In this document: piece after piece, positions 1 through 24,751 of the stretch
Position numbering within the stretch: position 1 is the stretch's first letter
How the letters are laid out: every line of letters starts with the position of its first letter
NCBI RefSeq assembly: GCF_947503045.1
Contig: NZ_CANNCF010000001.1
Location: forward strand, 1,178,001-1,242,000
From: an uncultured Tateyamaria sp.
Lineage (GTDB): Bacteria; Pseudomonadota; Alphaproteobacteria; Rhodobacterales; Rhodobacteraceae
Direction of reading: 5' to 3'
Length of the DNA stretch: 64,000 bases
Program-made: the position numbers and the translations under genes
The notes under the pieces: model-generated
Database searches by the model: none
Told to the model about the DNA's origin: nothing
The model's input: the letters and a program-made list of their open reading frames with translations, nothing else

Positions 1-140
1 TTGGATTGCGCGCGTGCGATCCCGGGAGTGAACAGCCCCACACCGCCCGCTGTCGTGGCCGCTGCCGCGACGGAGGCGGCGGTCAGAAACGTTCGGCGGT
101 TCACGCCGCCCGTGTCGTCAGTATCTGAAAAATCTGTCAT
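1..140 (-). CDS. Tat-exported protein, 5' part only (probable periplasmic binding protein)
   Basis: Only the first 46 codons lie in the window; the gene runs off the left edge. The N-terminus carries a twin-arginine motif (NRRTFLTAAS) at residues 14-23, an Ala-rich hydrophobic stretch and a cleavage-type ARAQS sequence near residue 42, which together make a clear Tat signal peptide. An AGGGAGG ribosome site lies about 7 bases before the ATG at 140. The gene follows the RuBisCO-like gene by 24 bases on the same strand, so the two are probably co-transcribed. In this context a solute-binding protein of a second importer is the likeliest product, but a periplasmic oxidoreductase is equally compatible with the visible residues. 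Confidence 0.7.
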   Translation of the reverse strand, partial: MTDFSDTDDTGGVNRRTFLTAASVAAAATTAGGVGLFTPGIARAQS

Positions 141-164
141 GTCTTCCTCCCTAAATGTTGTTGC

Positions 165-1292
165 TTATCCGCCCGTTAGCGCGGCCTTGAGCTCCCGAAT
201 GCCGCTTGCAATCTCGTCCTTGTATCGCATCGCGCCCCCCCCAAAGAGGAACACGGCTTCGGGGCCGTACATCTCGCGAAGCAAAGGCGCGAGTTCGAGG
301 TTCATTCCGCCGCCCGGGGACGGCAGAATGGGTATGAAGGGCCCGTTTGGGTCCCGGCAGTCCTGCGCGACCTGCACGCACAACTCCTTGGAAAATCCGT
401 AGCGACCGCCAAAGCTGGGGTAGATCGATATGTCCGCGCCCATCAGCCGTGGATATGATGCATACATCACCGAATGGCTCAGTCCGTTCAGACCGGCATT
501 GGTGAACGATCCCATGCCGGACGGGTGGAACATGATCGGTCGCGACAGCTCGGGCGTTCCGGCCAGAAAGCGGACCGAGTCAAAACCGGTAAGCCCCGGC
601 ATGACCAGATATCCGCCTGCTCCGGCTTCCACCGCAAAGCGTGCCCGTTCTTCCAGCTTGTCAACCGGGCACAGCATGGACGGCGCATAGATCGTGGTAT
701 TTCCGGTCTCTGCATTGGCTTTTGCGACGGCCTTGGAAATGGCTTCGACCCGGGGCTCGAACGGGGCCCAGTGCTGCATCGCAAGACTATGGTCGTCCTT
801 GATCAGGTCGATCCCACCCAGCACGCATTGATAGGCCCGCTCGGCCAGTTCGTCCGCTGACAGTCCCATCGGCTTGAGGACGGCACAGACCATCGGGCCG
901 GACCCGCCGACAATGTCGCGCACGCCCTTGGCGCCGAATTGCGGGCCGGGGAACATCGACTGCACCTCGGCGGACAGCTCGATCCCGACCAGCTTGACGG
1001 CGACATGGATCGAACAATTGCCGTACAGCACATTCATCATCTGGGGCAACTCACCCCCCGTGATGTCGGAGCGATAGCGGATGCGGGCGCGGTAGATGCC
1101 GCCGCCCTGATCCTCGACCGTCTCGACCTGCGCCAGCACGTAGTCGAGGATAAATCCATGCGGCACAGCTTCGTCGATGCATTCGATCGTCTGTTCGCGC
1201 GCAATACTGCGCGCCCAGCCGTCTGCGTCTGACGGGCTGTCTGCTTTGAATTCGTAAGTTCCCCAGAACTCGGCCATAGGCTGGTCCGTCAC
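165..1292 (-). CDS. RuBisCO-like protein (form IV)
   Basis: The 375-residue product has the N-terminal alpha/beta and TIM-barrel layout of RuBisCO large subunits. Visible active-site landmarks are LKPMGLS (Lys140, equivalent to RuBisCO Lys175), IKDDH (Lys165, the carbamylated lysine, with Asp167), FHPSG (His256) and the phosphate loops PSPGGGM (about 325-330) and LFGGG (349-353). The usual Glu after KDD is His168, and the loop-6 lysine region reads FGGRYGF, so true carboxylase activity is not expected. Known form IV members act as enolases or isomerases in methionine salvage, or in apiose breakdown as 3-oxo-isoapionate-4-phosphate decarboxylase (OiaX). The KDDH pattern fits the latter type better, from memory. 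No OiaK-type kinase is seen nearby. The listed start is GTG; ATG at 1277 is an alternative. Confidence 0.88.
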   Translation of the reverse strand: MTDQPMAEFWGTYEFKADSPSDADGWARSIAREQTIECIDEAVPHGFILDYVLAQVETVEDQGGGIYRARIRYRSDITGGELPQMMNVLYGNCSIHVAVKLVGIELSAEVQSMFPGPQFGAKGVRDIVGGSGPMVCAVLKPMGLSADELAERAYQCVLGGIDLIKDDHSLAMQHWAPFEPRVEAISKAVAKANAETGNTTIYAPSMLCPVDKLEERARFAVEAGAGGYLVMPGLTGFDSVRFLAGTPELSRPIMFHPSGMGSFTNAGLNGLSHSVMYASYPRLMGADISIYPSFGGRYGFSKELCVQVAQDCRDPNGPFIPILPSPGGGMNLELAPLLREMYGPEAVFLFGGGAMRYKDEIASGIRELKAALTGG

Positions 1293-1383
1293 CCTGCATT
1301 CAGTGTCTTGTCAAAGAGATCAACAAATGATCTTCTTTTTGTCAAACACAATTTGCATTTGTAAATTCAAAGGCGAGGGCCCG
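1293..1383. promoter_or_regulatory. Divergent control region with two TGTCAAA elements
   Basis: This AT-rich interval separates the divergent RuBisCO-like and flavoprotein genes. TGTCAAA occurs at 1309-1315 and 1340-1346, exactly 31 bases apart (about three helical turns). The same heptamer occurs in the two other divergent control regions of the island, at 6945 and 13853. This pattern suggests an operator for one of the two SorC-family regulators encoded in the island; binding is inferred. Confidence 0.5.
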
Positions 1384-3042
1384 TTGAAACTGAGACAAGA
1401 GGCGATTGCCCGGCTGGACAATCTGCGCACGCCAGACGTTCTGATCCTGGGCGGTGGCGTGAACGGGATTGCGACCTTGCGTGATCTCGCGCTCAACGGG
1501 GTGTCCGCCGTCTTGATCGAGCGCGGCGATTTTTGCCGGGGGGCCAGCGGGGCCTCCAGCCGGATGGCCCATGGCGGGTTGCGCTATCTGGAAAACCGCG
1601 AATTCGATTTGGTGCGCGACGCGCTGGAGGAGCGCGATCTGCTGCTCAAACACGCCCCGCATGCCGTTGTGCCGCAGGCCTTCCTGTTGCCGGTCGAGCA
1701 CCGTCTGCGCGGCACATTTGGTGCGGCGCTCAAGTTCCTCGGGATGGGCGGGCGCACGTCCCAGCCCTCCGCGCTTGGGATGAAGGCGGCGCTGATGATC
1801 TATGACAGGTTTCAGACCAGTGCCGCGTTGCCACGCCACAAGATGACCTTGTCGCGCGTGGATTTGCCCATCGGGACGCAGGCCCGCTTTGGCGCGTCGC
1901 TCAGCTATTTCGATGGCAAGTTCTGCAACCCCGAGGGGTTGGTGTTTGAACTGTTGCAAGAGGCGCTGGACCAGTCCTCCGATGTCACCGCGCTGAACCA
2001 CGTTGATTTTCAGTGCCTTACAGATGGCACGATTACCCTCAAGGGCGATGGCGTGCGAGCGGATATCACCCCCAGGCTGATCATCAACGCGACCGGTGCC
2101 TGGCTTGACCGCACCAACGCACTGCTGGATGTGCCCACAGACTATGTCACAGCCGTCAAAGGCGCGCAGATTGTACTGAACCGACCTGATCTGCTGCAAC
2201 GGCTTGCCGGGCGGGCCCTGTATTTCCCTGACACGGGCGGGCGCTTTGTGATCTGCGCGCCGCTCGATCAGACAGTGCTGGTCGGCACCAGCGAAGTCGT
2301 GGTGCCCGATGCATCTGATGCCACCATCGCCTCTGCCGAAATTGACTACCTCCTGCAGGCGATGAACACGTTGTTCGCGGATCTGAGGGTGACCGAAGAC
2401 GACATTCTCGTCGCCACAACCGGCGCGCGCCCTTTGCAAAAGGTGAAGGGGGGGAACGTTACGGCCGCACCGCGCGGGCATGTGATCCACGTCGACGAAA
2501 CCCCGGCTGGACAGCCGCTGATGTCTCTGGCGGGTGGCAAGTGGACGACTTTTCGCGGCTTTGCCGAAGAGGCCGCGGATCAGGCCCTGAAGGCGCTTGG
2601 CAAGGCGCGCACGGTCAGCACCCGCACGCGTGGCTATGCCGGAACCCCAACTGCCGACACACCCGCAGACCCGCGCGACCGTCAGCTTGCCGAGCGGTAT
2701 GGCGGGCTGTGGCAAGCGGTGTCCGCGTTCTGTGCGGAAGAGGCTGACGCACCGCTGGACGACGCGCCCGGGTTCTCGCAACGCGAAATTGTCTGGCTGG
2801 TGCAGGGGCGAGGGGCCTTGCATCTTGATGACCTCATCTTGCGCCGCACCCGTCTGGCGCTCGAGCAACCCATCGAGGATGCGCTTCTGGACGAACTGGC
2901 GGGCATTATGGCGCAGGCCCTCGATCAGACAGCAGCCTGGGCCGACAGCGAGGTTCGCCGGATTCGCGCGCTGCCGACGGTGAGTTACCAAAGCGCACGC
3001 GCGCTTGCGGCACAGGACAACACAGCTATGATCGCCCGATGA
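1384..3042 (+). CDS. FAD-dependent polyol-phosphate dehydrogenase, GlpD/EryB-like
   Basis: The product is a DAO-family flavoprotein of 552 residues from the TTG at 1384. An FAD-binding LGGGVNG motif lies near residue 22, followed by the GlpD-type GASGASSRMAHGGLRYLE segment. A C-terminal domain of about 120 residues matches GlpD/EryB length. Such enzymes oxidise glycerol-3-phosphate or, in erythritol degradation, erythritol-4-phosphate, passing electrons to quinone at the membrane. The open frame extends upstream to 1303, but that extension reads through the AT-rich operator region, while the TTG at 1384 has GGCGAGG just upstream and puts the FAD motif where the family has it. The gene overlaps the next regulator by four bases (ATGA). 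An EryB-like role on a polyol phosphate is inferred from the neighbouring EryA-like kinase and EryD-like regulators. Confidence 0.82.
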   Translation: MKLRQEAIARLDNLRTPDVLILGGGVNGIATLRDLALNGVSAVLIERGDFCRGASGASSRMAHGGLRYLENREFDLVRDALEERDLLLKHAPHAVVPQAFLLPVEHRLRGTFGAALKFLGMGGRTSQPSALGMKAALMIYDRFQTSAALPRHKMTLSRVDLPIGTQARFGASLSYFDGKFCNPEGLVFELLQEALDQSSDVTALNHVDFQCLTDGTITLKGDGVRADITPRLIINATGAWLDRTNALLDVPTDYVTAVKGAQIVLNRPDLLQRLAGRALYFPDTGGRFVICAPLDQTVLVGTSEVVVPDASDATIASAEIDYLLQAMNTLFADLRVTEDDILVATTGARPLQKVKGGNVTAAPRGHVIHVDETPAGQPLMSLAGGKWTTFRGFAEEAADQALKALGKARTVSTRTRGYAGTPTADTPADPRDRQLAERYGGLWQAVSAFCAEEADAPLDDAPGFSQREIVWLVQGRGALHLDDLILRRTRLALEQPIEDALLDELAGIMAQALDQTAAWADSEVRRIRALPTVSYQSARALAAQDNTAMIAR

Positions 3043-4022
3043 CCGACCGGCCGTCCTCCTCAGTCCTGAAATACGCAACCCGCAGCGCGCCGCCCTCCGA
3101 TGCGGTCGTGTCCGAAACCGCGTGGCTCTATTATGTGCGCGGGCTGACGCAGGGCGAAGTGGCGCAGGCGCAAAACATCTCGCGTCCCACCGTCGCCGCC
3201 TATCTGAAGGCAGCCAAAGAGCGGGGCCTGATTGCCATCAAGCTCGACCCACATCACCTGCGCCTGAACGAGCTGAGCCACGCGCTCAAGACCCGGTTTG
3301 GGGTCGACGCGGTCCACGTGCTGCCCGCAAACGGGCTGATCGGCAAAGAGCTTACGCAAGCCGTGAGCGAGGTCGGGGCGCATCTGCTGCCGGGCTTCTT
3401 TGAGCCGCTCGACATTGTCGGCGTCTCCTGGGGCGAAACCATCTCGCTGCTGGCCGAGGTGGTGCCATACTGGCCGCAGCAAAACCTCAAGGTGATCCAG
3501 CTTTTGGGGTCGATGGCCAACCCGCTGATCATGAGTTCGGAACGCTGCACATCGGAAATTGCGCGCCGCCTTGGTGGCACAGGGATCAACATGAATGCCC
3601 CTGCCGTGTGTTCAACCAAATCGGTTGCGGACAGCCTGCGGTCCGAGCCGATCATCGCAGAGCAACTGGCGCAACTGAAGCACTGCAACAAGGCGGTGTT
3701 TTCGGTCAGCACCTGCGACGCCGAAGCGCATGTCGTGCAGTTCAAAGTCGCCACGCCTGAGGACGTCAGTTACTACCAATCCCAAGGCGCGGTCTGCAAC
3801 GCAGTGGGCCGGTTTCTGGATGCCGACGGCCATCAGGTCAAAGGGCCACTGGACGACCGATTGTTTGCAGTTGAATGGGACGACTTTCGGGTCATGCAAG
3901 GCTTTATGGTCGTGTCAGGCCTTGAAAAAGCGCAAGCCACCCGCGCTGTGTTGAAAGGGGCCAAGGTCTCGCAATTGGTGCTGGACGATGCCCTTGCGGC
4001 CGCCATTCTGGCGCTAGACTAG
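3039..4022 (+). CDS. SorC/DeoR-family transcriptional regulator
   Basis: The 327-residue product has an N-terminal helix-turn-helix (residues 36-58, around GEVAQAQNISRPTVAAYL) and a C-terminal sugar-binding SorC domain that resembles a phosphosugar isomerase fold. Members such as EryD and SorC respond to a phosphorylated sugar and control the adjacent catabolic operon. Its ATG overlaps the flavoprotein stop codon, so both are made from one transcript. Its 3' end overlaps the convergent PfkB gene by nine bases. It is one of two SorC-type regulators in the island. The two are clearly paralogous in layout but differ in sequence, which suggests control of different operons or of different intermediates. 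Confidence 0.88.
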   Translation: MTDRPSSSVLKYATRSAPPSDAVVSETAWLYYVRGLTQGEVAQAQNISRPTVAAYLKAAKERGLIAIKLDPHHLRLNELSHALKTRFGVDAVHVLPANGLIGKELTQAVSEVGAHLLPGFFEPLDIVGVSWGETISLLAEVVPYWPQQNLKVIQLLGSMANPLIMSSERCTSEIARRLGGTGINMNAPAVCSTKSVADSLRSEPIIAEQLAQLKHCNKAVFSVSTCDAEAHVVQFKVATPEDVSYYQSQGAVCNAVGRFLDADGHQVKGPLDDRLFAVEWDDFRVMQGFMVVSGLEKAQATRAVLKGAKVSQLVLDDALAAAILALD

Positions 4023-4958
4023 GATGTCTGCCGTTTCCATGAAGGCCAATGTGGTGTCCAGATCGACCACGCCTGCATCCGACCCCAAACCGGTGGCCAC
4101 CAATCCGGAGGTTGCGGTACCAAGGCGGCAGGCCGCCTCCAGATCATAGCCCATGTTCAGCCCGGCGATGAACCCGCCACAATAGCTGTCGCCGCATCCC
4201 GTGGTGTCGGACACATCGACCTTGAAGGCGGGCATCTGGAACGTGGTATCGGCGGTCTTGATGAACGACCCTTCGGGGCCGGTCTTGAGAATGCAGGCCG
4301 CCGCCCCGAGATCCATAAAGAACTGCGCGATATCCGTTCGATCCGTCAGGCCCGAGATGAACTCGGCCTCTTCAATAGAGGGCATGAAATAGTCGATATG
4401 GGGCAGCATGGGCTTGAGTTGTTCCAGCGTGCCCTCGTGCGGGCCGATCAGATCGAATGTGGTGGTCAGCCCCTTGCCCTTGGCGTGGGCCAGCAGCTTG
4501 GCGCCCTGGCCGTCTTCCATCGCGCGGATGAAACCGTGGCCCGCATAATGCAGGTACTTGGCATCGCATACCGCGTCGAACATGTCCTCCGTCACAAACA
4601 GCTCTTCGGATGCGCCGCGGCAATGCAGGCAGGGGCGATCGCCATTGGGGCGGATCGGCAGAATGGTGGACGAGGTGCCGACGGCCTTGGTGCGCATCGC
4701 CATTGAGGTATCAATGCTCATGCGTCCGAACACGTCGTGGATGAAGTCCCCCTTTTCATCCTCGCCGACGCAGAACACGGCTGTCGTCTTTGTGCCCATC
4801 TTGGCGCAGTTCATCACCGACCCGCCAACAGTTCCCGCCGGGTTGATCCGGATTTCGTCCAGAAATGCGATCCCGCCACCATCAGGAATGTCGGCCACAT
4901 GCCGTCCTGAAATATCAAGGGTCATGAACCCGACAAAGCTTGCATCGAATTTGGTCAC
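4014..4958 (-). CDS. PfkB-family carbohydrate kinase
   Basis: The 314-residue product is a ribokinase/PfkB-type sugar kinase. The N-terminal glycine-rich segment (NPAGTVGGSVMNCAKMG, residues 39-55) and the C-terminal signature DTTGCGDSYCGGFIAG near residue 250, with the catalytic Asp of GCGD, are both present. It starts at a GTG directly after the stop codon of the transketolase C-subunit gene, so the three genes 6907 to 4014 form one operon. It probably phosphorylates a ketose, deoxyribose-like sugar or sugar acid feeding or following the transketolase step. The exact substrate cannot be read from the sequence. Confidence 0.88.
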   Translation of the reverse strand: MTKFDASFVGFMTLDISGRHVADIPDGGGIAFLDEIRINPAGTVGGSVMNCAKMGTKTTAVFCVGEDEKGDFIHDVFGRMSIDTSMAMRTKAVGTSSTILPIRPNGDRPCLHCRGASEELFVTEDMFDAVCDAKYLHYAGHGFIRAMEDGQGAKLLAHAKGKGLTTTFDLIGPHEGTLEQLKPMLPHIDYFMPSIEEAEFISGLTDRTDIAQFFMDLGAAACILKTGPEGSFIKTADTTFQMPAFKVDVSDTTGCGDSYCGGFIAGLNMGYDLEAACRLGTATSGLVATGLGSDAGVVDLDTTLAFMETADILV

Positions 4959-5963
4959 TTACAGGCCCTCCGCCTTTGCAAGGGAGTGTACGGCATCAAC
5001 CCGTGCTGCGGACAGGTCTTCTTCGGTGATGCCGAGTTTTTGTCCCATCAAATCCTCGATCCCTTGGGTCAGCGCCAGCGCATCCAACCCGTAATAACGC
5101 ATGAGATACGCGCGGCTGCCGCCATGGGCATAGGTGTCGTTCAGTCCCAGTCGCTTGAGTTTTTTGCCCACGCCGTTGTCGGCCATGATTTCGGCCATCA
5201 GGGACCCGATCCCGCCTTCGGTCACGTGGTTTTCCAGCGTGACAACGCCGCCTTTGACGCTGTTGATGTGATCCAGCATGGCGGCGGCATTGAACGGCTT
5301 GATCGTGTTGAGATGCAGATGGCGTACGGACACGCCCGCGCCTTCCAAGGCTTTGGTGGCGCGCATCGCCTCTTCGGTGGTGATGCCGGCGGTGACGATC
5401 AGGATGTCGTCGCCCAAGGACAGTTCGCGCATCTGGCCCACCACAATCGGCGTGTCGAACAGACGCGGCATCTGCCCGCGCAGCACGCGGCAATAAACGG
5501 GGCCGTCGATGCTGTCAGCGGCCTCGCAAATGCTTTCGACTTCGGTCGCATCGCCGGTCTCAAGGATCGTCATGTTGGGCATGGAGCGCATGACGGAGAT
5601 ATCTTCGATGGCTTGATGCGTCATGCCGCCGGGCGTGGTGATGCCGGGCAGGAACCCCATGATGCGCACCTTGCGCCGGGGATAGGCGATGGACGCTATC
5701 AGCTGATCATAGGGACGGCGGTAGCAGAAAACGCCAAAGGTGTGGATGAATGGGCGATACCCGGCGAGGCCAAGACCCCCGGCAAAGCTCATCATGTTTT
5801 GTTCGGCCATGCCAAGGCTCAGGAACTGGTCGGGGTGGTTGTCGCGAAACTTGTCGATCTCGCAGCTCGACGTCAGATCGGCGGACAGACACAGCACATC
5901 CGGATTGGCCAAGGCGTGTTGTTCAAAGGCCCGCTCATAGGGGCGGCTTACCATTTCCAGCAT
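4959..5963 (-). CDS. Transketolase-like subunit, C-terminal half (pyrimidine-binding and C domains)
   Basis: The 334-residue product matches the second half of transketolase. A pyrimidine-binding domain contains the catalytic glutamate in SLGMAEQNMMSFAGG (Glu54), and a transketolase C-terminal domain follows from about residue 190. The N-terminal half is encoded immediately upstream with an ATGA overlap, so the functional enzyme is a two-gene split transketolase. Split transketolases of this kind include the AptA/AptB pair that cleaves apulose-4-phosphate in D-apiose degradation, as well as several uncharacterised relatives. The context of a sugar importer and kinases supports a dedicated catabolic transketolase rather than the pentose-phosphate housekeeping enzyme. 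Confidence 0.88.
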   Translation of the reverse strand: MLEMVSRPYERAFEQHALANPDVLCLSADLTSSCEIDKFRDNHPDQFLSLGMAEQNMMSFAGGLGLAGYRPFIHTFGVFCYRRPYDQLIASIAYPRRKVRIMGFLPGITTPGGMTHQAIEDISVMRSMPNMTILETGDATEVESICEAADSIDGPVYCRVLRGQMPRLFDTPIVVGQMRELSLGDDILIVTAGITTEEAMRATKALEGAGVSVRHLHLNTIKPFNAAAMLDHINSVKGGVVTLENHVTEGGIGSLMAEIMADNGVGKKLKRLGLNDTYAHGGSRAYLMRYYGLDALALTQGIEDLMGQKLGITEEDLSAARVDAVHSLAKAEGL

Positions 5964-6907
5964 CAGTGCGCTCCTGCATAGTCGACCGGGTCGACCTTGA
6001 GTGATTTGGCGATCTCGACGTTGTAGCGCGCGCGTTCCTCTTCGGATTTGAAGCGGACATAGTGCAGGCGCGGGAACCGTTCGAGCAGCGTGGGCATACC
6101 GCGCCAGGGCGAGGAATTGGCCAGAATGATCAGCGGCTTGCCCATGTGCGGGGTGCGGGCCGCGGCGCGCATCTCGTCGAGGTTGTGGGCATCGGCCCAG
6201 ACCACCTTGGCGCCGAAATCCTCCATCTTCTGGGCGATATCGCCAACTTCCATCACCGAGTTCATCGCGCCGTCACATTGCTGCCGGTTCACGTCCATGA
6301 TGGCTTTTACGTTGTCGATCTTGTGGTGCGCGCAGCACTGGATGGCCTCCCATGTCTGACCTTCCTGCACTTCGCCGTCAGACATGTAGACCCAGACCTT
6401 GCCCGTCTCGCCACGCCGTTTGCGGCCCCATGCCAGCCCTGCCGCCGTGGACAGACCGATGCCAAGAGTGCCGTTATGCACCTCCATGCCGGGGCTGTGT
6501 TCGGCTCCGATCATCTCGACCGAGGAGCCGTCCTTGTTGAACATCTCAAGCCCTTCGGGGGCCATGCGCCCCACTTCGATCAGCGTGGCATAGGCGACCA
6601 GTGCATAATGTGCAGGGGCGATAAACAGGCGGTCGAGGTCGGGCTCAAACGGCCCGTTATAGCCCGCACCGGTATGATAGTCGGGATTGTCCGCACTTGG
6701 CACGCCGCCAAAGGATTTCGGGATCATCGGCAGCGTCGGCGGGCCAAGGTTCAGCTCTTCGTTATAGAGCCATGCGAGCTGTTCGGCAGCCGAGCAGGCC
6801 TGGCTCAGGTACCCGCCATTGTTGCGCATGGCGTGTTCGAACACACGGCGGCGAATGCCAAGGGCAACATCTTCGGTTGTCTTCTCGTTCGTCAGCATCT
6901 GCGCCAT
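5963..6907 (-). CDS. Transketolase-like subunit, N-terminal half (TPP-binding)
   Basis: The 314-residue product is the thiamine-diphosphate-binding half of a split transketolase. The diphosphate/Mg motif is read as SDGEVQEGQ (residues 176-184) with Asn207 in DVNRQQ, and the HNGTLGIGLSTAAG segment (144-157) is typical of the family. It is the first gene of an operon with the C-half and the PfkB kinase. The start at 6907 gives the normal N-terminus; 91 bases of AT-rich control sequence separate it from the divergent molybdoenzyme gene. Confidence 0.88.
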   Translation of the reverse strand: MAQMLTNEKTTEDVALGIRRRVFEHAMRNNGGYLSQACSAAEQLAWLYNEELNLGPPTLPMIPKSFGGVPSADNPDYHTGAGYNGPFEPDLDRLFIAPAHYALVAYATLIEVGRMAPEGLEMFNKDGSSVEMIGAEHSPGMEVHNGTLGIGLSTAAGLAWGRKRRGETGKVWVYMSDGEVQEGQTWEAIQCCAHHKIDNVKAIMDVNRQQCDGAMNSVMEVGDIAQKMEDFGAKVVWADAHNLDEMRAAARTPHMGKPLIILANSSPWRGMPTLLERFPRLHYVRFKSEEERARYNVEIAKSLKVDPVDYAGAH

Positions 6908-6998
6908 ACTCCGTTCCAGAATGTCGAACCTGAGTAGTTACATATGTCAAAATACATGTCATATGCAAACCTAATAGTCAGCCCGGGAAAGCTGTAGG
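6908..6998. promoter_or_regulatory. Divergent control region with TGTCA repeats and CATATG pair
   Basis: The interval between the split-transketolase operon and the molybdoenzyme gene contains TGTCAAA at 6945-6951 and TGTCA at 6957-6961, plus CATATG at 6941-6946 and 6960-6965. It is far richer in A and T than the flanking genes. The shared heptamer links it to the control regions at 1309-1346 and 13853, so a common SorC-type regulator is a reasonable inference. Confidence 0.45.
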
Positions 6999-11184: not shown

Positions 11185-12701
11185 GCCGCCTGGCCACCCG
11201 TTGTCAGCGCCACCAGATGATCGATGCCCAACATGTCTGCCTGCACCTCGGCCACGATTTCGCCGCGCAGCATGACAAGGACGCGATCACACAGCCCCAC
11301 CAATTCCGCCGGGTCCGAAGACGACACGATCACCGCCGCGCCATCCGCCGCCAATTGCTCAACCAAAGTGTAGATTTCGACCTTGGCCCCGACATCCACA
11401 CCCACGGTCGGTTCATCCAGAATGAACAGTTTGGCGCCACGTGTCAGCCAGCGGCCCAGAACCACCTTTTGCTGATTGCCGCCACTGAGGTTGCGGGCGA
11501 CGGCTGCGGGGTTGGGCGGGCGGATATCCAGTTGCGCGGTCACCCCAGCCGCCTTCTCCGCGCCAGCCTTGCGCCGTTCGATCAACGCGGTCGAAATGTC
11601 ATCGAGAGAGGCAAGGTTCACGTTGTCGCTGACAGTCATGTCCAGAACCAGCCCGTCATGGCGGCGATCACGTGGGACCAGCACCATGCCTGCAGCGACC
11701 GCATCGCGGGGGGCCTTGAAGGTGCGGGGGGCGCCGTCAAATACCACCGACCCGGCACTTGGTTTTCTGAGACCATAAAGCGTGTCCACCAACTCTTCGC
11801 GCCCCGATCCGATCAGCCCTGCAATGCCGACGATCTCACCGGCGCGGACCTCAAAGCTCACATCACTGAACGCCTCATGGGCAAGGCCAGTGACCTGCAG
11901 CATCTGGGCTGCGGCTGCATGATTTGAGGAGGGAAACAGCGCATCCAGCTCTCGGCCCACCATCGCGGTGATCATCGCATCGGCGCTGTCTGGCAGGATG
12001 TCGTCGAACACGGCAACGTTGCGGCCATTGCGCAGCACGGTCACTCGGTCGCAAATATCAGTGATTTCAGCGAGATAGTGAGAGACATAGATCATCGCGA
12101 TCCCGCGTTCTTTCAGTCGCTTGATGGCCGCAAACAGTTTCTTCGTCTCGCCGCTGGAGAGGGGCGCGGTTGGCTCATCAAACACCACCAGCTTGGCCGC
12201 CCCGTCAATCAGGGCGCGCGCGATCTGTACCAGTTTGCGCTCTGCGATACCAAGGTCGCGGATCAGAGTGCTGCCCTGCAATTCCGTCCCCAAGGCCTCG
12301 CGAAAGAACGCCTCGGCCCGGCGCGTCATCTCGCGGCGGCGCAGACCTGTGGGGCCGGACAGTTCCTGCCCCATGAACACGGATTCGGTGACGGTAAAGT
12401 GCTGCACCAGATGCAGTTCCTGATGGATGAACCGCACGCCCGCGGCATGGATGGTGCGGGGATTGACGTCACCCAGCGTCTCGCCGTCCATCGCAACAGA
12501 GCCGCCATCGGCCTTGTAGACCCCCGCCAGCACCTTGATGATGGTCGACTTGCCAGCGCCGTTTTCACCCACAAGGCCGTGGATCTCTCCGGCGCGCACG
12601 CTCAGCGCGACCTTGTCCAGCGCAAGCACACCGGGAAACGACTTGGTTATGTCGTGCATCTGCAAAAGGGCGTGCGCCACAGCAGGTCTTTCCGTTGTCA
12701 T
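11181..12701 (-). CDS. Sugar ABC transporter ATP-binding protein, fused double NBD (RbsA/MglA type)
   Basis: The 506-residue product contains two ATPase domains in tandem. The first has Walker A GENGAGKS (residues 45-52) and Walker B followed by FDEPTAPLS; the second has the signature NLSGGNQQKVVLGRWL and LDEPTVGVDVGAK. This layout is specific to CUT2 importers for monosaccharides and polyols. The frame is open to 12884, but the extension covers the stem-loop region and the binding-protein gene; ATG at 12701 gives the family N-terminus. It energises import together with the two permeases. Confidence 0.92.
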   Translation of the reverse strand: MTTERPAVAHALLQMHDITKSFPGVLALDKVALSVRAGEIHGLVGENGAGKSTIIKVLAGVYKADGGSVAMDGETLGDVNPRTIHAAGVRFIHQELHLVQHFTVTESVFMGQELSGPTGLRRREMTRRAEAFFREALGTELQGSTLIRDLGIAERKLVQIARALIDGAAKLVVFDEPTAPLSSGETKKLFAAIKRLKERGIAMIYVSHYLAEITDICDRVTVLRNGRNVAVFDDILPDSADAMITAMVGRELDALFPSSNHAAAAQMLQVTGLAHEAFSDVSFEVRAGEIVGIAGLIGSGREELVDTLYGLRKPSAGSVVFDGAPRTFKAPRDAVAAGMVLVPRDRRHDGLVLDMTVSDNVNLASLDDISTALIERRKAGAEKAAGVTAQLDIRPPNPAAVARNLSGGNQQKVVLGRWLTRGAKLFILDEPTVGVDVGAKVEIYTLVEQLAADGAAVIVSSSDPAELVGLCDRVLVMLRGEIVAEVQADMLGIDHLVALTTGGQAA

Positions 12702-12720
12702 GGTCTGAGGAAGGTCGTCG

Positions 12721-12753
12721 GAAAGGGCACGCCGCGTCAAGGCGCGCCCTTTC
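12721..12753 (-). promoter_or_regulatory. Stem-loop between binding-protein and ATPase genes
   Basis: GAAAGGGC at 12721-12728 pairs with GCCCTTTC at 12746-12753, and after one mismatch CGCC/GGCG continues the stem around a seven-base loop, giving a strong 12-bp hairpin just after the binding-protein stop codon. No T-tract follows, so it is more likely a 3'-end stabiliser or partial terminator that keeps binding-protein mRNA in excess than a full terminator. Confidence 0.6.
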
Positions 12754-12762
12754 AGGGAAGGA

Positions 12763-13737
12763 TCAGTCCAGCGAGCCGTATCCAAGCTCTTTATAGGCGG
12801 CTTTGGCCTCGGCCTGCCCATTGACCGGGAACACATCCACAAAGGTCTGCGGCAGCAACGTCTCGCCCGCAAAATGAGCGGCAACGTTACGTGCGGCCGT
12901 CGAGCCGATCAGGTTGGGTTGCTGTGCGACATTGGCCACGAAGGGCGAGCCGTCCTCGGCCATGATTTCGAGCGTGTCGGGGCCGCCATCAAGGGCTGTG
13001 ACCAGCACATCTGTCCGCCCGGCTTCTTCAAGCGCCTGCACAATGCCGATGGCCGGTTGGTCCCAGCACCCGACATGGATCGCATCCAGCGTCCCTTCGG
13101 GATACTGGCTGAGCAGATCGAGGGTTTTCTTGCGCGCATCCTCGGGCGCGTTGGCAAATTCCTCGGCCAGTTCGGGTTGGATGATTTCGATGCCCGGATA
13201 GTCCTGCAGCACGTATTTCCACAGGCCTGTGCGGATGCCGCAAATGCGCAGCGCACCTTCAAAGGCGTTGAACACCGCAACCTTGCCTTCGCCGCCGATC
13301 GCATCCGCCATATAACGGCCAATCGTGGTGCCCATATAGTAGTTGTCCGACGTTGTATTGTTCACCGCATGGGGCGACTGGTGGTCCACGGTAAAGACCG
13401 GAATGCCCGCGTTCTTAAGGGCTTCGAATTTCGGCTCAACTGCACCGTCGCCAAGGATCGAAATCACCGCATCCACACCCTGATTGAGCAGAATGTCATG
13501 GTTGTCCGCATGGACCTGATTGTCGCGACCGCCATCGACCGGCACCACGGTGCCGCCCAGTTCTTTGACCGTGTCGACCGCGCCGTTAAAGGCCTCGCGA
13601 TCCCAAAAGTGCTGTGTGCCGACAACCGCAACGCCGATGGTCTTGCCTTCGAGGTTGGCGTGGCCATCCGCTGCGGCCATGCCAGCAACAGATACAGACA
13701 TCGCCAACGCGGCCAGTAGTTTCGTGGTGTAATTCAT
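12763..13737 (-). CDS. Periplasmic sugar/polyol-binding protein of the CUT2 ABC importer
   Basis: The product is 324 residues from the ATG at 13737, which has an AGGGAGGAAATC ribosome site. A Sec signal peptide occupies residues 1-23 (ending GMAAADG) and a Peripla_BP_4 domain follows, beginning KTIGVAVVGTQHFWDREAF. It resembles RbsB/XylF-type binding proteins. It is the first gene of the importer operon, ahead of the ATPase and two permeases, and is divergent from the FGGY kinase operon. Longer upstream frames read into the AT-rich control region and are not used. Confidence 0.9.
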   Translation of the reverse strand: MNYTTKLLAALAMSVSVAGMAAADGHANLEGKTIGVAVVGTQHFWDREAFNGAVDTVKELGGTVVPVDGGRDNQVHADNHDILLNQGVDAVISILGDGAVEPKFEALKNAGIPVFTVDHQSPHAVNNTTSDNYYMGTTIGRYMADAIGGEGKVAVFNAFEGALRICGIRTGLWKYVLQDYPGIEIIQPELAEEFANAPEDARKKTLDLLSQYPEGTLDAIHVGCWDQPAIGIVQALEEAGRTDVLVTALDGGPDTLEIMAEDGSPFVANVAQQPNLIGSTAARNVAAHFAGETLLPQTFVDVFPVNGQAEAKAAYKELGYGSLD

Positions 13738-13881
13738 GATTTCCTCCCTGGGCATGCCCTGATTATCAAGGGTCAAAGCGCTCATATTCTTCGCTGTCCG
13801 TTTCGGATCGTAAGCGAGATCAGGGTTAACATGTGACAATTTATATGTCATGTGTCAAATTTATTGATGAGGGGGATCTGG
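13738..13881. promoter_or_regulatory. Divergent control region, importer versus kinase operon
   Basis: The interval contains a cluster at 13832-13860: TGTGACA (13832-13838), TGTCA (13846-13850) and TGTCAAA (13853-13859). The last heptamer is shared with the other two divergent control regions of the island. The cluster lies close to the kinase start and about 100 bases before the binding-protein start, consistent with an operator serving both directions. Confidence 0.45.
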
Positions 13882-15366
13882 GTGTCAGAACGGCTTTTGA
13901 TTGGCATCGATGCAGGTACAACAGCCGTCAAGGCAGCGGCCTTTACCCTGACAGGGACACCGGTTGCAGGCGCGCGGCAGTCGCTGAACGTGCTGCGGCC
14001 CGAACCCCGGTTTTCCGAAATCGCCATGCAGGACATCTGGCAGGCCGTCATCGCATGTCTGCGCGACATCGCGGGTCAAATCGATACCGGCCGCGTTGCC
14101 GGGATCGGGGTGTGCGGGCAGGGCGACGGGTTGTGGATGCTGGACGCGGATAAACAGCCCTTGCGCAATGCGATCCTGTGGAACGACGCGCGGGCCAGCG
14201 ATGAGGTCAGCGACTGGGCGACAGACGGCACTGCCGATGCGATCAGCCGCCATTGCCGCACTGCAATCTGGCCGGGCACTGCCGGGGCCGCGCTGCGCTG
14301 GGTGCAGGACAATGAACCGACGGTGTTTGAGCGCATCGCTCATATCCTCTTTGCCAAGGACTGGATCGTCTACAACCTCACCGGCACGCTTGGCAGTGAT
14401 TTCAGCGACGCGACAATTCCCTTTCTTGATTTGGACACGGGCAGCTACGCGCCCGAGATCTTTTCCGCTCTGGGTCTGCCGGACATGTCGGGCAAGTTGG
14501 TCCAGCCCAGCAGGGCCAGCGACCCTGCAGGCCCTCTCGATGCGGACCTCGGATTTGGCCCTGTGCCCGTGGCGCGCGGCACGCTGGACTTGGCGGCGAT
14601 GATGGCGGGTGCTGGCCTCAACGCGCCTGGCGACATGTGCCTGATCCTCGGCACCACGGCCGTGTTGTCCTATGTGGCCCCGCCCGAACCGTTCACCACG
14701 CCGCCGCTGGCCGCAACCGTGCACCACCCGCTCAGCGCGGACTGGATCCGGGTTCTGGCCCCGCAAACCGGGGCCTCGGCCTTTGACTGGTTCGCTGCCC
14801 TGCATCCCAACAGCTTTGGCGGCGCGGATGCAGGCGAAATCAGCGCCAAGATCAACGAGGCCGCACAGCACGTACCGCCCGGCGCCAATGGTGTGCTGTT
14901 CCTGCCGTTCCTGACCGGCGAACGCGCGCCCTTTGTCGCGCCCGAGGCGGCGGGGTCCTTTCACGGGTTGCGCATCAGCACCACCAAGGCCGACCTTGCC
15001 CGCGCGGTGATGGAGGGCACCGGGTTCAGCCTACGCCACTGCCTGCAGGCCAGCGGCGCGCCTGCGCCCGAACGTGTGGTGCTGACCGGGGGCGGTGCGC
15101 GCAATACATTATGGTGCCAGATTGTGGCGGACATCCTTGGCGTCACGATCCTTGCCAATGCCTCCGAAGATCACGGACTGTGGGGGGCGGCCCTGCTTGG
15201 CGGGGCTGCTGCAGGACTATGTGATCCGCTGAACGGCGCGCGCGACGAGGGATTTGACACCTTCACCCCGGACCCGGCCGCCCACGCGATCTATTCCAAC
15301 ATATTCGAGACCTATCTGATGGCAATCGACGCCAGCCAGCCCATCTGGTCCGCCATGAGGAGCTGA
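13882..15366 (+). CDS. FGGY-family carbohydrate kinase, EryA-like
   Basis: The 494-residue product has the two actin-like domains of the FGGY family: an N-terminal GIDAGTTAVKAAAF phosphate loop (residues 8-21), GVCGQGDGLW near residue 78, and the C-terminal LTGGGARNTLWCQIVADIL motif near residue 400. The GQGDGLW segment and the neighbouring GlpD-like and SorC-type proteins recall erythritol kinase EryA, but L-xylulose and apulose kinases are in the same family. GTG at 13882 is chosen because AGGGGG lies seven bases upstream and the resulting N-terminus fits the family; ATG at 13867 is an alternative. It heads an operon with the dehydrogenase, aldolase and regulator. Confidence 0.85.
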   Translation: MSERLLIGIDAGTTAVKAAAFTLTGTPVAGARQSLNVLRPEPRFSEIAMQDIWQAVIACLRDIAGQIDTGRVAGIGVCGQGDGLWMLDADKQPLRNAILWNDARASDEVSDWATDGTADAISRHCRTAIWPGTAGAALRWVQDNEPTVFERIAHILFAKDWIVYNLTGTLGSDFSDATIPFLDLDTGSYAPEIFSALGLPDMSGKLVQPSRASDPAGPLDADLGFGPVPVARGTLDLAAMMAGAGLNAPGDMCLILGTTAVLSYVAPPEPFTTPPLAATVHHPLSADWIRVLAPQTGASAFDWFAALHPNSFGGADAGEISAKINEAAQHVPPGANGVLFLPFLTGERAPFVAPEAAGSFHGLRISTTKADLARAVMEGTGFSLRHCLQASGAPAPERVVLTGGGARNTLWCQIVADILGVTILANASEDHGLWGAALLGGAAAGLCDPLNGARDEGFDTFTPDPAAHAIYSNIFETYLMAIDASQPIWSAMRS

Positions 15367-15371
15367 CCACC

Positions 15372-16424
15372 ATGAGCAACATGATGACCGCAGCGGTGTA
15401 TCACGCGCTGGATGACATTCGCATCGAACAGCGCCCAATCCCCGAGATCGGGCCGGACGACATCCTGCTCAAGACCCTTGCCTGCGGCCTGTGCGGTGGC
15501 GAAACCATGGCCTGGTACAAAAAGGCTGAGCCCAAGGTGCTGGGTCATGAGCCTGTGGGCGAAGTGGTCGAGGTTGGGGCCAACGTAACGGACTACAAAA
15601 TTGGCGAGCGACTGTTCGTGAACCACCATGTGGGCCGCGTGAACTCGCATTTATCGCTGCGGGGCAAGTTCACGCGCGATCCGTTTTACAGCAGTATGAA
15701 GCTCGATCCCGGCGGGGTCTGCGAATACTACCGTGTGACCGGGCAGCACCTTGCCATGGACACCCACCGCATCCCCGTTCACATCTCGAATATCGAGGCG
15801 ATCACGATCGAACCGTGGTCTTGCGTAGTCGGCGGGCTCAAGCATTGCAACATCCAGCCCGGCGACACGGTCGCGGTGGTGGGGGCGGGGTTCATGGGGC
15901 AGGGCTTTGTCCATATGGCGCCGCTGTTTGGCGCGGGCAAAGTGGTGGCGCTGGACTTTTCCGACTGGCGTCTGGAACAGGCGCGCGGGTTGGGGGCGAC
16001 GCATACGATCAACCCCAAATCCGAAGACGCGATTGCGGCCATGCGAGCGCTGAACAACGGTCGCCTCGCCGATACGGTCATCGTTATCGCACCCTTCGCC
16101 TCCGCTTGGGCGCAGGCCGAGGCCTTGGTCGAAGTTGGCGGGACCTTGCATCTGGGCGCCCCCTTGGCGCCGGGTGAAGAGTGGACCCGCGACGGCAACA
16201 AGGCCTATTTCGACGAGATCACTGTGACATCCAAATACTCATCTGATCACACCGACACGTATAGCTATTTCCGCCTGCTCGATGCGGGCCGCATCGACGC
16301 CAAGCGCGCCGTGACGCACCACTTTGACATCAAGGACAGCGCTGCCGCCTTCAAAATGCTGGTCGAAGCGGAAAAGTCGCTGAAAATCGTGGTCTACCCC
16401 CATGGTCTGCCGGAGGGCCTATAG
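15372..16424 (+). CDS. Zinc-type medium-chain alcohol/polyol dehydrogenase
   Basis: The 350-residue product is a GroES-like medium-chain dehydrogenase. Catalytic zinc ligands are suggested by Cys38 (LACGLCGGE) and His59-Glu60 (LGHEPVGE), and the NAD(P)-binding loop is GAGFMG at 171-176. The lobe that usually carries four structural-zinc cysteines here lacks them (segment 84-108), as in some sorbitol-type dehydrogenases. It probably oxidises a polyol or sugar hydroxyl with NAD(P). It lies five bases after the kinase stop and abuts the aldolase gene directly, so it belongs to the kinase operon. Confidence 0.85.
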   Translation: MSNMMTAAVYHALDDIRIEQRPIPEIGPDDILLKTLACGLCGGETMAWYKKAEPKVLGHEPVGEVVEVGANVTDYKIGERLFVNHHVGRVNSHLSLRGKFTRDPFYSSMKLDPGGVCEYYRVTGQHLAMDTHRIPVHISNIEAITIEPWSCVVGGLKHCNIQPGDTVAVVGAGFMGQGFVHMAPLFGAGKVVALDFSDWRLEQARGLGATHTINPKSEDAIAAMRALNNGRLADTVIVIAPFASAWAQAEALVEVGGTLHLGAPLAPGEEWTRDGNKAYFDEITVTSKYSSDHTDTYSYFRLLDAGRIDAKRAVTHHFDIKDSAAAFKMLVEAEKSLKIVVYPHGLPEGL

Positions 16425-17090
16425 ATGCTGGAAGCACTGAAAGCTGAGGTTTGCGAACAAAACCACGAACTGCCCGCCAACGGCCTCGTTGTCGGCTCGG
16501 GCGGAAACGTGTCCGGGCGCGATCCCGAGACGGGGCTGGTGGTGATCAAACCTTCGGGCGTCAAATTCAGCAAGCTGACGCCGGAGAAGATGGTGGTTGT
16601 CGATCTGGAGGGAACTGTGATTGAGGGAGAGATGAAGCCCTCGGTCGATACCGGCATTCACCTCTATATCTACCGCCACCGGTCGGATGTGTTTGGGATT
16701 ACTCACACCCATTCGCCCTATGCCAGCAGCTTTGCAGCGCGCGGCGCGCGCATCCCGGCAGTGACGACCCCGATCACCCATATGCTGGGGCGCGACGTGC
16801 CCTGTTCGCGCTATGCAACCCCCGGCGAGGTCGACACAGGGGCGGCCATTATCGAGGCGGCCGCAGGCGGCTGGGCGGTGCTGGTCAAAGCCCACGGTGT
16901 CTTTACCATGGGCAAATCCGCAACCCAGGCCACATCCATCGCGATGTATCTCGAAGAAGCCGCCATGACGACCCATCTGGCCCTGCTGCACGGCCCTGTG
17001 GATGAGCTGCCTCAGTCGGAAATTGATCGCTGTTACAATTGGTTCAACAAAAACTATGGTCAGGCGGGGCAAAAGCAGGTCAAAGAGTAA
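16425..17090 (+). CDS. Class II aldolase/epimerase, AraD/FucA family
   Basis: The 221-residue product has the full-length class II aldolase/adducin fold. Zinc ligands are visible as THTHSPYA (His94, His96) and KAHGVF (His157), with SGGNVSGR at 25-32 and IKPSGVKF at 41-48 for phosphate binding. Members are L-ribulose-5-phosphate 4-epimerase, fuculose-1-phosphate aldolase and related tetrulose or tetronate phosphate enzymes. The ATG follows the dehydrogenase stop codon with no gap. In this operon it should act on the phosphorylated ketose made by the FGGY kinase or the flavoprotein. Confidence 0.87.
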   Translation: MLEALKAEVCEQNHELPANGLVVGSGGNVSGRDPETGLVVIKPSGVKFSKLTPEKMVVVDLEGTVIEGEMKPSVDTGIHLYIYRHRSDVFGITHTHSPYASSFAARGARIPAVTTPITHMLGRDVPCSRYATPGEVDTGAAIIEAAAGGWAVLVKAHGVFTMGKSATQATSIAMYLEEAAMTTHLALLHGPVDELPQSEIDRCYNWFNKNYGQAGQKQVKE

Positions 17091-17093
17091 TCT

Positions 17094-18077
17094 ATGGTCC
17101 AGATCACCCAGCCCAACCGCAACCGCGAAGACAAAGAGGCGCTGCTCGCCAATATTGCTTTGCTTTATTATGGCGAGGGGCTGACGCAAAGCGAGATCGC
17201 CAAGCGGATGCAGGTGTCGCGCGCGACCATCGTCAACCTGCTGCGCGAAAGCCGCGAACGCGGGATTGTCGAGATACGGGTGGATGGCAAACATCTGTCG
17301 TCGTCCAACCTCGCGCGGGATTTGCGCGACAAGTTCGGGCTGCAGGATGTCTATATCGCGACCGCTGACAACCGAGACAGCGTGCAGGATCGCGCGGGCC
17401 TTTTGGCGCATGTCAGTCGCGTGGGTGCGGCCGCATTTCTCGATATTGTCGCCCCCGGTGACCGTGTGGGTGTCGCATGGGGCGAGACGATCATGGCCGT
17501 GTCGGATGTCATGGCACCCTCATCCACCGAAAGGGTGCAGGTCTGCCAACTGATTGGCTCGATGAATTCGGTGCGGGTGCCGACCTCAGAAAACTGCGCC
17601 ATCCAGATTGCGGGCAAGATCGGGGCCGAATGCTATACCTTGCATGCGCCGGGGGTTGTCGCCTCACCGGAACTGGCCGAGGTGTTTCGGAACGAGCCCA
17701 CAATCCGCGAACAACTCTCGCGGCTGGATGATCTGGACATGATCGTCGCCTCCGTCGGGAACGTATCGCCTGACACGCATCTCAAGGTGGCTGGCATGGC
17801 GACCACCCAGGAATTGCAGGCCGCGCGCAAACTGGGGGCCAAGGGCATCATTTGCTGCCGGTTCATCGACGCAGACGGGCAGGGCATCGAAACCGCCCCC
17901 GACGACCGCGTAATCGCAGCCAACCTTGCCAACCTGCGTAAGCCCAAGAAAAAGCTGTTGGTGGTGTGCGGTGCGAACCGGACCGAGGCGACGCTGGCCT
18001 CGCTGCGTGGCGACCTTGTGACCCACCTGTGCGTCGATCAAGTGCTGGCGATGGAGCTGTTGCAGAGCGCGCCGTAA
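17094..18077 (+). CDS. SorC-family transcriptional regulator (second copy)
   Basis: The 327-residue product has a helix-turn-helix at residues 30-52 (LTQSEIAKRMQVSRATIVNLL) and a C-terminal SorC sugar-binding domain with the GVAWGETI segment also present in the first regulator as GVSWGETI. It is the last gene of the kinase-dehydrogenase-aldolase operon, starting three bases after the aldolase stop. It is comparable to EryD, the erythritol operon repressor, in length and place. Probable ligands are phosphorylated intermediates of the pathway. Confidence 0.88.
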   Translation: MVQITQPNRNREDKEALLANIALLYYGEGLTQSEIAKRMQVSRATIVNLLRESRERGIVEIRVDGKHLSSSNLARDLRDKFGLQDVYIATADNRDSVQDRAGLLAHVSRVGAAAFLDIVAPGDRVGVAWGETIMAVSDVMAPSSTERVQVCQLIGSMNSVRVPTSENCAIQIAGKIGAECYTLHAPGVVASPELAEVFRNEPTIREQLSRLDDLDMIVASVGNVSPDTHLKVAGMATTQELQAARKLGAKGIICCRFIDADGQGIETAPDDRVIAANLANLRKPKKKLLVVCGANRTEATLASLRGDLVTHLCVDQVLAMELLQSAP

Positions 18078-24580: not shown

Positions 24581-24751
24581 GCGCGGGTTTATGTCCGGTT
24601 CAGGCAGGAGCGGCAAGGCGTTGAAATCGAGTGCATCGCCATTGCCTTTCGGAGCAGCGGCCAGCCCTCGGTAATCTGGAAAACCGAGATGCGGAACATC
24701 GCGTGAACATGCGTCTTTCCCTTTTGCCGCGTCCGGTTTAGTTTGTCGCCC

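Follow-up and report, generated by a model that had tools for sequence, protein, structure and literature searches.

A gene island of an uncultured Tateyamaria with two proposed routes for 5-substituted pentoses that would meet at a split transketolase

Introduction

What substrate is served by a gene island that joins a RuBisCO-like protein (RLP), a split transketolase-like enzyme (TktA and TktB, together TktAB) and a molybdoenzyme of the dimethyl sulfoxide (DMSO) reductase type? The question is raised by the first 18,077 bases of a 64,000-nucleotide stretch of the genome of an uncultured Tateyamaria sp. (assembly GCF_947503045.1, contig NZ_CANNCF010000001.1, positions 1,178,001 to 1,242,000), here called the window. 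The left half of the island holds the RLP, a GlpD-like flavoprotein, a SorC-type regulator (SorC1) and a PfkB kinase, and the right half the molybdoenzyme, a CUT2-type importer, an FGGY kinase, a zinc-dependent dehydrogenase, an AraD-like protein and a second regulator (SorC2), with TktAB between them (Table 1). An earlier note on this DNA had read it as a mixture of erythritol and D-apiose pathway parts that would degrade a different polyol or branched sugar by an undescribed route.

Our analysis supports its view that the island is catabolic and that the substrate may be polyol-like. We think it somewhat probable that this substrate is a pentose or pentitol in which a group X, most likely methylthio or its S-oxide, stands in place of the 5-hydroxyl, and that two entry routes meet at TktAB. 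The pathway would most likely be a variant form of 5-deoxy-5-methylthiopentose catabolism, distinguished by a thiamine diphosphate (ThDP)-dependent cleavage step that we did not find described. The literature covered, which included few subscription papers, contained no recognisable account of a route leading from an RLP or methylthioribose to a transketolase; the route can stand as undescribed to that extent, and an account may exist in print.

Results

Conservation of TktAB and its partners

TktAB is the hub of the island and of its relatives, more than 100 of which were fetched, some of them twice. Among 394 genomes of the family, searched with the RLP at E ≤ 1e-30 and with TktB at E ≤ 1e-110, the RLP was found in 26, TktB in 33 (32 at 71% identity or more) and both in 25 (Fisher p = 1.5e-31). 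In 24 of these 25 genomes no more than 42 bases separate the two matches; the exception is the window, where the distance is about 3.7 kb. TktB of the eight genomes without an RLP is 78-82% identical in seven cases and 52% in one (G014). MtnA was present in 21 of the 24 fetched RLP loci (24 of the 25 other family genomes; G216 was left out), and two of the three loci without it are placed at the end of a contig or on a short one. TktB of this kind also occurs in many rhizobia and in a few other phyla.

Contigs of named organisms were scanned with an alignment of TktB; at least 590 stretches matched, at least 463 of them encoding relatives at E ≤ 1e-3, possibly including ordinary transketolases, and the best 80 were used. 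A scan of the same kind of contigs with a single RLP gave no match, although the TktB-alignment scan did find RLP loci. The counts below hinge on set similarity thresholds; the stretches stop at contig edges, several loci belong to the same genomes as the family loci, and most loci examined were chosen by TktB. All 80 loci encode TktA, 47 the RLP, 39 MtnA, 34 MtnK, 30 the molybdoenzyme, 28 the FGGY kinase, 18 the zinc dehydrogenase, 13 a second dehydrogenase and 15 the AraD-like protein; importers of the window type and of the taurine type occur in 12 and 8, a sulfatase in 11 and a sulfatase maturase in 8, a PfkB kinase in one and a GlpD-like protein in none.

These genes fall into recurrent sets. 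MtnA accompanies 39 of the 47 RLP loci and none of the 33 others, and an FGGY kinase or dehydrogenase is found in 28 of the 30 molybdoenzyme loci. RLP and molybdoenzyme nearly exclude each other (44 loci with the RLP only, 27 with the molybdoenzyme only, three with both, six with neither; p = 2e-12), which fits two alternative feeds; the window holds both. Four settings could be distinguished. Setting I, in Rhodobacterales and rhizobia, is MtnK-MtnA-importer-TktAB-RLP, and with it a RbsD/FucU mutarotase was seen (16 of the 80 loci). Setting II is nucleoside phosphorylase-amidohydrolase-MtnA-TktAB-RLP, mostly with a nucleoside importer and sometimes with the molybdoenzyme, and one operon unites phosphorylase, amidohydrolase, MtnA, molybdoenzyme, TktAB and RLP. 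Setting III is molybdoenzyme-FGGY-dehydrogenase-AraD-SorC2-TktAB, often with a taurine-type importer, sulfatase and maturase. Setting IV has the window's right-hand importer together with molybdoenzyme, FGGY kinase, dehydrogenase and TktAB; in two loci that were extended, AraD and SorC2 were found as well. Among the MtnK and MtnA proteins of the RLP operons, one of each (L012 and L003, respectively) scores above its NCBIfam cut-off. The window is a left half of its own kind joined to a right half of setting IV. It was not found to belong to setting I, since a search of its genome for MtnA gave no match (MtnK was not searched for genome-wide). The earlier note had staked its reading on the genes being co-conserved: each half is indeed conserved on its own, but no locus examined had the full combination.

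TktB of the window is about 65% identical to rhizobial proteins and 70-96% to those of Rhodobacterales and others, reaching 91-96% in the nearest loci with MtnK/MtnA or with the molybdoenzyme. These relatives adjoin either MtnK, MtnA and an RLP or the molybdoenzyme/FGGY/dehydrogenase set, a kinship that points to 5-substituted pentoses and does not support the supposed mixture of erythritol and apiose pathways; the route is probably neither. No support was found for an apiose reading. Contig 12 of the window genome carries a second TktAB island (L013, L143; TktA 85% and TktB 91% identical) with molybdoenzyme, FGGY kinase, zinc dehydrogenase, AraD-like protein, SorC regulator, taurine-type importer, sulfatase and sulfatase maturase, and with no RLP within the fetched stretches.

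Altered substrate residues in TktAB

Residues of the ThDP site (D155, G156, N185 and E411 in E. coli numbering) and H473 are kept in 40 of 40 aligned loci. In the same 40 loci, E. coli H26 is replaced by Tyr and D469 by Gly, and no His aligns with H100, where the alignment is loose; H261, R358 and H461 fall in alignment gaps and thus outside the comparison. TktAB does not carry the substrate residues H26, H100 and D469 of canonical transketolase, all of which are retained in the solved split transketolase 6yak/6yaj. H100 contacts the C1-hydroxyl of the donor and D469 the 2-hydroxyl of the acceptor aldose, and loss of H100 fits a donor bearing methylthio at C1. Transketolases use sugars of xylulose configuration. 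A promiscuous transketolase step in 5-deoxyadenosine salvage was suggested earlier for M. jannaschii, as reported in PMC8102628 (excerpt).

The RuBisCO-like protein

The only RuBisCO_large match of the window genome is neither OiaX, the RLP of D-apiose catabolism, nor the enolase MtnW, both of which are ruled out by scores and residues: it scored 77.8 bits with the OiaX model NF042437 (cut-off 700), which upholds the earlier view that the route differs from the OiaX pathway, and 191.5 and 148.7 bits with the MtnW models (cut-offs 409 and 513.6). It shares the motifs KxDH and GGR[FY] with 75 aligned relatives (duplicates included) and with the cupin-linked RLP of Terrarubrum (L011). Both motifs are missing from Priestia MtnW and from two OiaX-type RLPs (OiaX and the Cupriavidus RLP), and neither is complete in the Vibrio RLP (L010). 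A GN motif was dropped from the signature because one OiaX-type RLP carries it too. We infer from these alignments that the two motifs mark the DeepYkr clade, that of 5-methylthioribulose-1-phosphate 1,3-isomerase. The best solved relative, 3qfw, has a generic name in the structure listing, and we take it to be RLP1 of R. palustris. RLP1 and the R. rubrum RLP convert 5-methylthioribulose-1-phosphate to 1-methylthioxylulose-5-phosphate and 1-methylthioribulose-5-phosphate in a ratio of 3:1, after which a downstream cupin frees methanethiol (PMC5893883 and PMC6302742, excerpts). Among the loci examined, that cupin was matched only in Terrarubrum. The residues shared with relatives of this enzyme lead us to propose that the window RLP is a 5-X-ribulose-1-phosphate 1,3-isomerase.

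Entry genes of the two halves

In the left half, PfkB and the GlpD-like flavoprotein, which falls below the cut-offs of the NCBIfam GlpD models, may replace MtnK and MtnA. GlpD-type enzymes oxidise the carbon beside the phosphorylated one, as established for glycerol-3-phosphate, so the pair could yield the ketose-1-phosphate that the RLP needs. The closest RLPs, those of two Acidobacteriaceae loci, each have next to them a protein 50-51% identical to SorC1; in one of these loci Dak1/Dak2 genes are also close to the RLP and could be a further source of a ketose-1-phosphate.

In the right half, the molybdoenzyme has no signal peptide visible by eye, and the solved structures nearest to it are of DMSO reductases (562-582 bits), with 1eu1 in first place, followed by chains named trimethylamine N-oxide reductase (427-546 bits). 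The motif SYGW, with the Tyr and the Ser ligand of DMSO reductase, is present in 41 of 41 aligned molybdoenzymes, window included and some genomes counted twice; at the place of the Tyr, a residue that favours S-oxides, the aligned E. coli TorA shows a gap. Such S-oxides exist in the sea, methylsulfinyladenosine derivatives having been reported from a marine ascidian (PMC4278203, excerpt). Proteins 72-93% identical to the right-hand binding protein occur in 12 of the 80 loci, all with molybdoenzyme and FGGY kinase. For the kinase, the closest NCBIfam model is XylB, at 271 of the 380 bits needed; SorC2 is 49-73% identical to its counterparts in AraD-bearing relatives. The AraD-like protein keeps D76, the metal-binding His 95, 97 and 171, and Y229 of L-ribulose-5-phosphate 4-epimerase in 23 of 23 aligned sequences.

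A proposed pathway with two entries

The RLP reaction is published for a relative; the substrate, all other steps and the product of TktAB we infer from the gene content, co-conservation and residue signatures observed above. In route A, the left-hand CUT2 importer would take up a 5-X-pentitol, PfkB would phosphorylate the end opposite X, the GlpD-like flavoprotein would oxidise the neighbouring carbon to give 5-X-ribulose-1-phosphate, and the RLP would shift the ketone to yield 1-X-xylulose-5-phosphate. In route B, the right-hand CUT2 importer would bring in the oxidised (S-oxide) form, which the molybdoenzyme would reduce; the zinc dehydrogenase would then produce 1-X-L-ribulose, the FGGY kinase would phosphorylate C5, and the AraD-like protein would invert C4 to give 1-X-D-xylulose-5-phosphate. 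TktAB would cut this shared product between C2 and C3 into glyceraldehyde-3-phosphate and a two-carbon fragment carrying X. Our preferred guess is that methanethiol would leave the ThDP adduct and acetyl-phosphate remain; alternatively, methylthioacetaldehyde would be released.

That one and the same 1-substituted xylulose-5-phosphate would arise from both halves is suggested by stereochemistry, in an argument made with Fischer projections on paper. The pentitol derived from 5-X-5-deoxy-D-ribose is 1-X-1-deoxy-L-ribitol when numbered from the X end; if it is oxidised at the carbon adjoining CH2X, phosphorylated at C5 and inverted at C4, it becomes 1-X-D-xylulose-5-phosphate, the compound that the RLP would also make from 5-X-ribulose-1-phosphate. 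That X is H, with 5-deoxyribose as the only substrate, is conceivable for the MtnK/MtnA loci; the molybdoenzyme would then be left without a role.

Evidence against the proposal and alternative readings

Several observations weigh against this pathway. The window RLP is only 37-47% identical to the TktAB-linked RLPs of rhizobia and of its own family. It is 67-68% identical to two Acidobacteriaceae RLPs, a figure independent of the tree, and in the tree it clades with these two (support 100/99), outside the MtnA-linked RLPs; in that tree, the placements of L010, L011, MtnW and OiaX are unsure because of long branches, and joins near the window's clade are to be read with caution. MtnA, so common in RLP loci, is missing from the window genome. 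Together with the divergent, separate clade, this means that the substrate of the window RLP may differ. One of the 26 RLP genomes of the family (G227) has no TktB match, and among the 80 loci, some of which end at contig edges, eight of the 47 with an RLP show no MtnA, six have neither RLP nor molybdoenzyme, and two have an FGGY kinase or dehydrogenase with no molybdoenzyme. No other locus examined showed the left half as such, and a GlpD match (E ≤ 1e-130) occurs in only two of 390 genomes of the order, the window's own included; in the other genome, G130, it sits in a GlpD/FGGY/SorC/CUT1 cluster that looks erythritol-like, and the GlpD-SorC1 pair recalls it, although no Ery reference sequences were in the comparison. 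The molybdoenzyme does not reach the cut-off of TIGR00509 (1017.55 bits). Loss of D469 from TktAB is odd for the release of glyceraldehyde-3-phosphate, a product that leaves it unexplained; E. coli DXS retains this residue. Finally, the AraD-like protein, which falls below its NCBIfam cut-off, has His for D120 and Cys for H218 in 23 of 23 aligned sequences, and its best solved relative is the 5-deoxyribulose-1-phosphate aldolase DrdA (6btd; 120 bits, against 115 for AraD), so that aldol cleavage is possible.

Part of this evidence would agree with a sulfur-free route of the erythritol or pentitol type, a reading that we regard as unlikely, if worth keeping in view. A kinase and the GlpD-like enzyme would make an ordinary ketose-1-phosphate, the RLP would move its ketone (pentulose-1-phosphate to pentulose-5-phosphate, or tetrulose-1-phosphate to erythrose-4-phosphate), and TktAB would work as a normal transketolase. 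The likeness of GlpD-SorC1 to the G130 cluster favours it, as does the lack of MtnA, which is shared by the two Acidobacteriaceae loci; the Dak1/Dak2 genes near one of their RLPs could phosphorylate a plain ketose. Yet TktB is nearly the same as in the nearest MtnK/MtnA and molybdoenzyme loci, the canonical transketolase residues are not in TktAB, and a plain polyol would leave the molybdoenzyme without a role. Quite unlikely, in our judgement, is an aldol route in the right half, with the AraD-like protein splitting the 1-phosphate into dihydroxyacetone phosphate (DHAP) and X-acetaldehyde, as DrdA and Ald2 do, and TktAB serving the left half only. The kinship with DrdA speaks for it, and Ald2 yields methylthioacetaldehyde in R. 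palustris (PMC5893883, excerpt); against this, the protein has, like AraD, an Asp where FucA has Glu73 (23 of 23), its best NCBIfam model is a 4-epimerase, and the right-half sets of relatives keep TktAB in the absence of an RLP, with the reservation that most loci were chosen by TktB.

That two unrelated catabolic islands with separate substrates merely lie side by side seems improbable. The halves are apart in nearly all relatives and the island has two importers and two SorC regulators, but elsewhere each kind of half is linked to TktAB, and RLP and molybdoenzyme do occur together in three of the 80 loci (L086, L096 and L126). Least likely, in our view, is that the molybdoenzyme-FGGY-dehydrogenase-AraD-TktAB set degrades arsenosugars, the 5-deoxy-5-(dimethylarsinoyl)ribose derivatives of marine algae. 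Their arsenic carries an oxo group, sulfate esters and a nucleoside are among them, and their D-ribo configuration (PMC9919133, excerpt) is the one required by the proposed AraD step. In 11 of the 15 AraD-bearing loci, and in none of the 65 others, a sulfatase is found close by; there is none near the window island, and one in the sister island on contig 12. The TktAB cut would here give a two-carbon arsenical, and dimethyloxarsylethanol has been obtained from decomposing kelp (PMC9919133). Against arsenosugars, the sole ArsP-family match of the window genome is on another contig (other arsenic genes were not searched for).

Layout of the island and neighbouring genes

Open frames for all fifteen named genes were confirmed where the earlier note had placed them, and their matches to Pfam and NCBIfam models agree with the families it had named. 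Pfam and NCBIfam gave matches to RuBisCO_large, DAO with DAO_C (GlpD type), the SorC-type regulator PF04198, PfkB, the N and C parts of transketolase, Molybdopterin with Molydop_binding, two CUT2-type permeases and the ATPase; the binding protein, FGGY kinase, zinc dehydrogenase, class II aldolase/AraD-type protein and second SorC-type regulator were matched by NCBIfam only. The near-spacerless packing was likewise confirmed: 11 of the 14 junctions between neighbours, computed from assumed gene starts, are at most 10 bases long or overlapping, and the remaining gaps measure 58, 91 and 114 bases.

Table 1. Genes of the island in the window, with proposed functions (G000, genome of the window; C1, its contig 1).
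Feature	Position	Strand	Remarks
Binding protein of left-hand (second) CUT2 importer, 5' end	1..140	-	RbsB-like; L002 17085-18140 = G000:C1:1177085-1178140; ATPase and two permeases follow
RuBisCO-like protein (RLP), proposed 5-X-ribulose-1-phosphate 1,3-isomerase	165..1292	-	PF00016, 81.7 bits; best solved relative 3qfw
GlpD/EryB-type flavin adenine dinucleotide dehydrogenase, proposed polyol-1-phosphate to ketose-1-phosphate	1303..3042, start not fixed	+	DAO and DAO_C
SorC-type regulator 1	3039..4022	+	PF04198, 169.5 bits
PfkB kinase, proposed C1 kinase of sugar alcohol	4014..4958	-	PF00294, 137.3 bits; reaches no NCBIfam cut-off
TktB, C-terminal half of split transketolase-like enzyme	4959..5963	-	PF02779 and PF02780
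TktA, N-terminal (ThDP-binding) half	5963..6907	-	PF00456
BisC/DMSO-reductase-type molybdoenzyme, proposed S-oxide reductase	6999..9287	+	TIGR00509, 846.8 bits, below cut-off
CUT2 permease 2	9284..10300, start not fixed	-	PF02653
CUT2 permease 1	10219..11184	-	PF02653
CUT2 ATPase	11181..12704, start not fixed	-	ABC_tran; sugar ATPase models
Sugar-binding protein, right-hand importer	12763..13851, start not fixed	-	RbsB-like
FGGY kinase, proposed 1-X-pentulose 5-kinase	13852..15366	+	XylB model, 271 bits, below cut-off
Zinc-dependent dehydrogenase, proposed pentitol to pentulose	15372..16424	+	Tdh/IolM-like, below cut-offs
AraD-like protein, proposed 4-epimerase (aldolase alternative)	16425..17090	+	PRK06557, 240.7 bits, cut-off 251
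SorC-type regulator 2	17094..18077	+	DeoR/LsrR-type models

The island extends beyond the left edge of the window, which opens inside the second CUT2 importer; its binding protein, ATPase and two permeases (G000:C1:1173675-1178140) follow the RLP on the same strand. Further left lie genes with no evident link to the island, such as one for pyruvate carboxylase. On the right, a ferric-reductase-like protein (18697-20019), a flavin mononucleotide-dependent dehydrogenase (23441-25090) and a UvrD helicase (24743-27175) follow, for which no link was seen. Elsewhere in the genome there are two genes of the methanethiol oxidase family and three matches to the phosphotransacetylase family, none near the island; these are weak and were not used as evidence.

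Among the related loci, MtnK-MtnA-TktAB-RLP operons are plasmid-borne in several rhizobia, that of Ensifer (L009 5620-16510) lying 1.8 kb from plasmid repABC. A plasmid of Vibrio nigripulchritudo (L010) carries a divergent TktAB-RLP pair, whose RLP residues are partly different, with an FGGY kinase, a short-chain dehydrogenase/reductase (SDR) and a CUT1 importer. A bifunctional class II aldolase/SDR gene lies near 16 of the 80 TktAB loci (e.g. L025 14952-17021). The record of L096 (and L034) is named Enemella evansiae, by name an actinobacterium, yet its proteins are 95-98% identical to those of a Ponticoccus plasmid, and the name is probably wrong.

Discussion

If the proposed pathway is true, methylthioribose carbon would have one more fate in addition to classical methionine salvage and the shunts that use a cupin or an aldolase: isomerisation by an RLP and then conversion by a ThDP enzyme. 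Should the ThDP step expel methanethiol, central metabolism would regain all the pentose carbon and a volatile sulfur compound would be released. The occurrence of TktB in 33 of the 394 family genomes, many rhizobia and a few other phyla means that the pathway may matter for the cycling of sulfur derived from S-adenosylmethionine, above all in the sea. For three importers, it also suggests substrates that can be tested.

The island can be compared with several known systems. The erythritol pathway, with EryA, EryB and EryD, shares a GlpD-like flavoprotein and a SorC regulator with it, and the island differs by TktAB, the RLP and the molybdoenzyme. D-apiose pathways likewise employ an RLP (OiaX) or a split transketolase (AptAB) in sugar catabolism; the likeness to AptAB is not drawn from sequence, and unlike OiaX, the window RLP scores far below the OiaX cut-off and has other residues. 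SqwGH of the sulfo-transketolase (sulfo-TK) pathway of sulfoquinovose is also a two-subunit transketolase acting on a sulfur sugar, a likeness that we take from the general description of that pathway and not from sequence.

Closer in chemistry is the 5'-methylthioadenosine (MTA)-isoprenoid shunt of R. rubrum and R. palustris (MtnP, MtnA, DeepYkr RLP and cupin; PMC5893883, excerpt), whose RLP has the same residue signature as that of the window and which the island's relatives resemble in MtnA and in their nucleoside or methylthioribose entry genes. In contrast to that shunt, a split ThDP enzyme replaces the cupin, and the window has PfkB and the GlpD-like flavoprotein and no MtnA. The DHAP shunt and 5-deoxyribose salvage (MtnK, MtnA and Ald2; DrdK, DrdI and DrdA; PMC5893883 and PMC6079011, excerpts) share with the island the proposed chemistry of 5-substituted pentoses and a protein of the class II aldolase family; unlike them, the island would use TktAB cleavage instead of, or besides, aldol cleavage, and has a molybdoenzyme and an entry through FGGY kinase and dehydrogenase.

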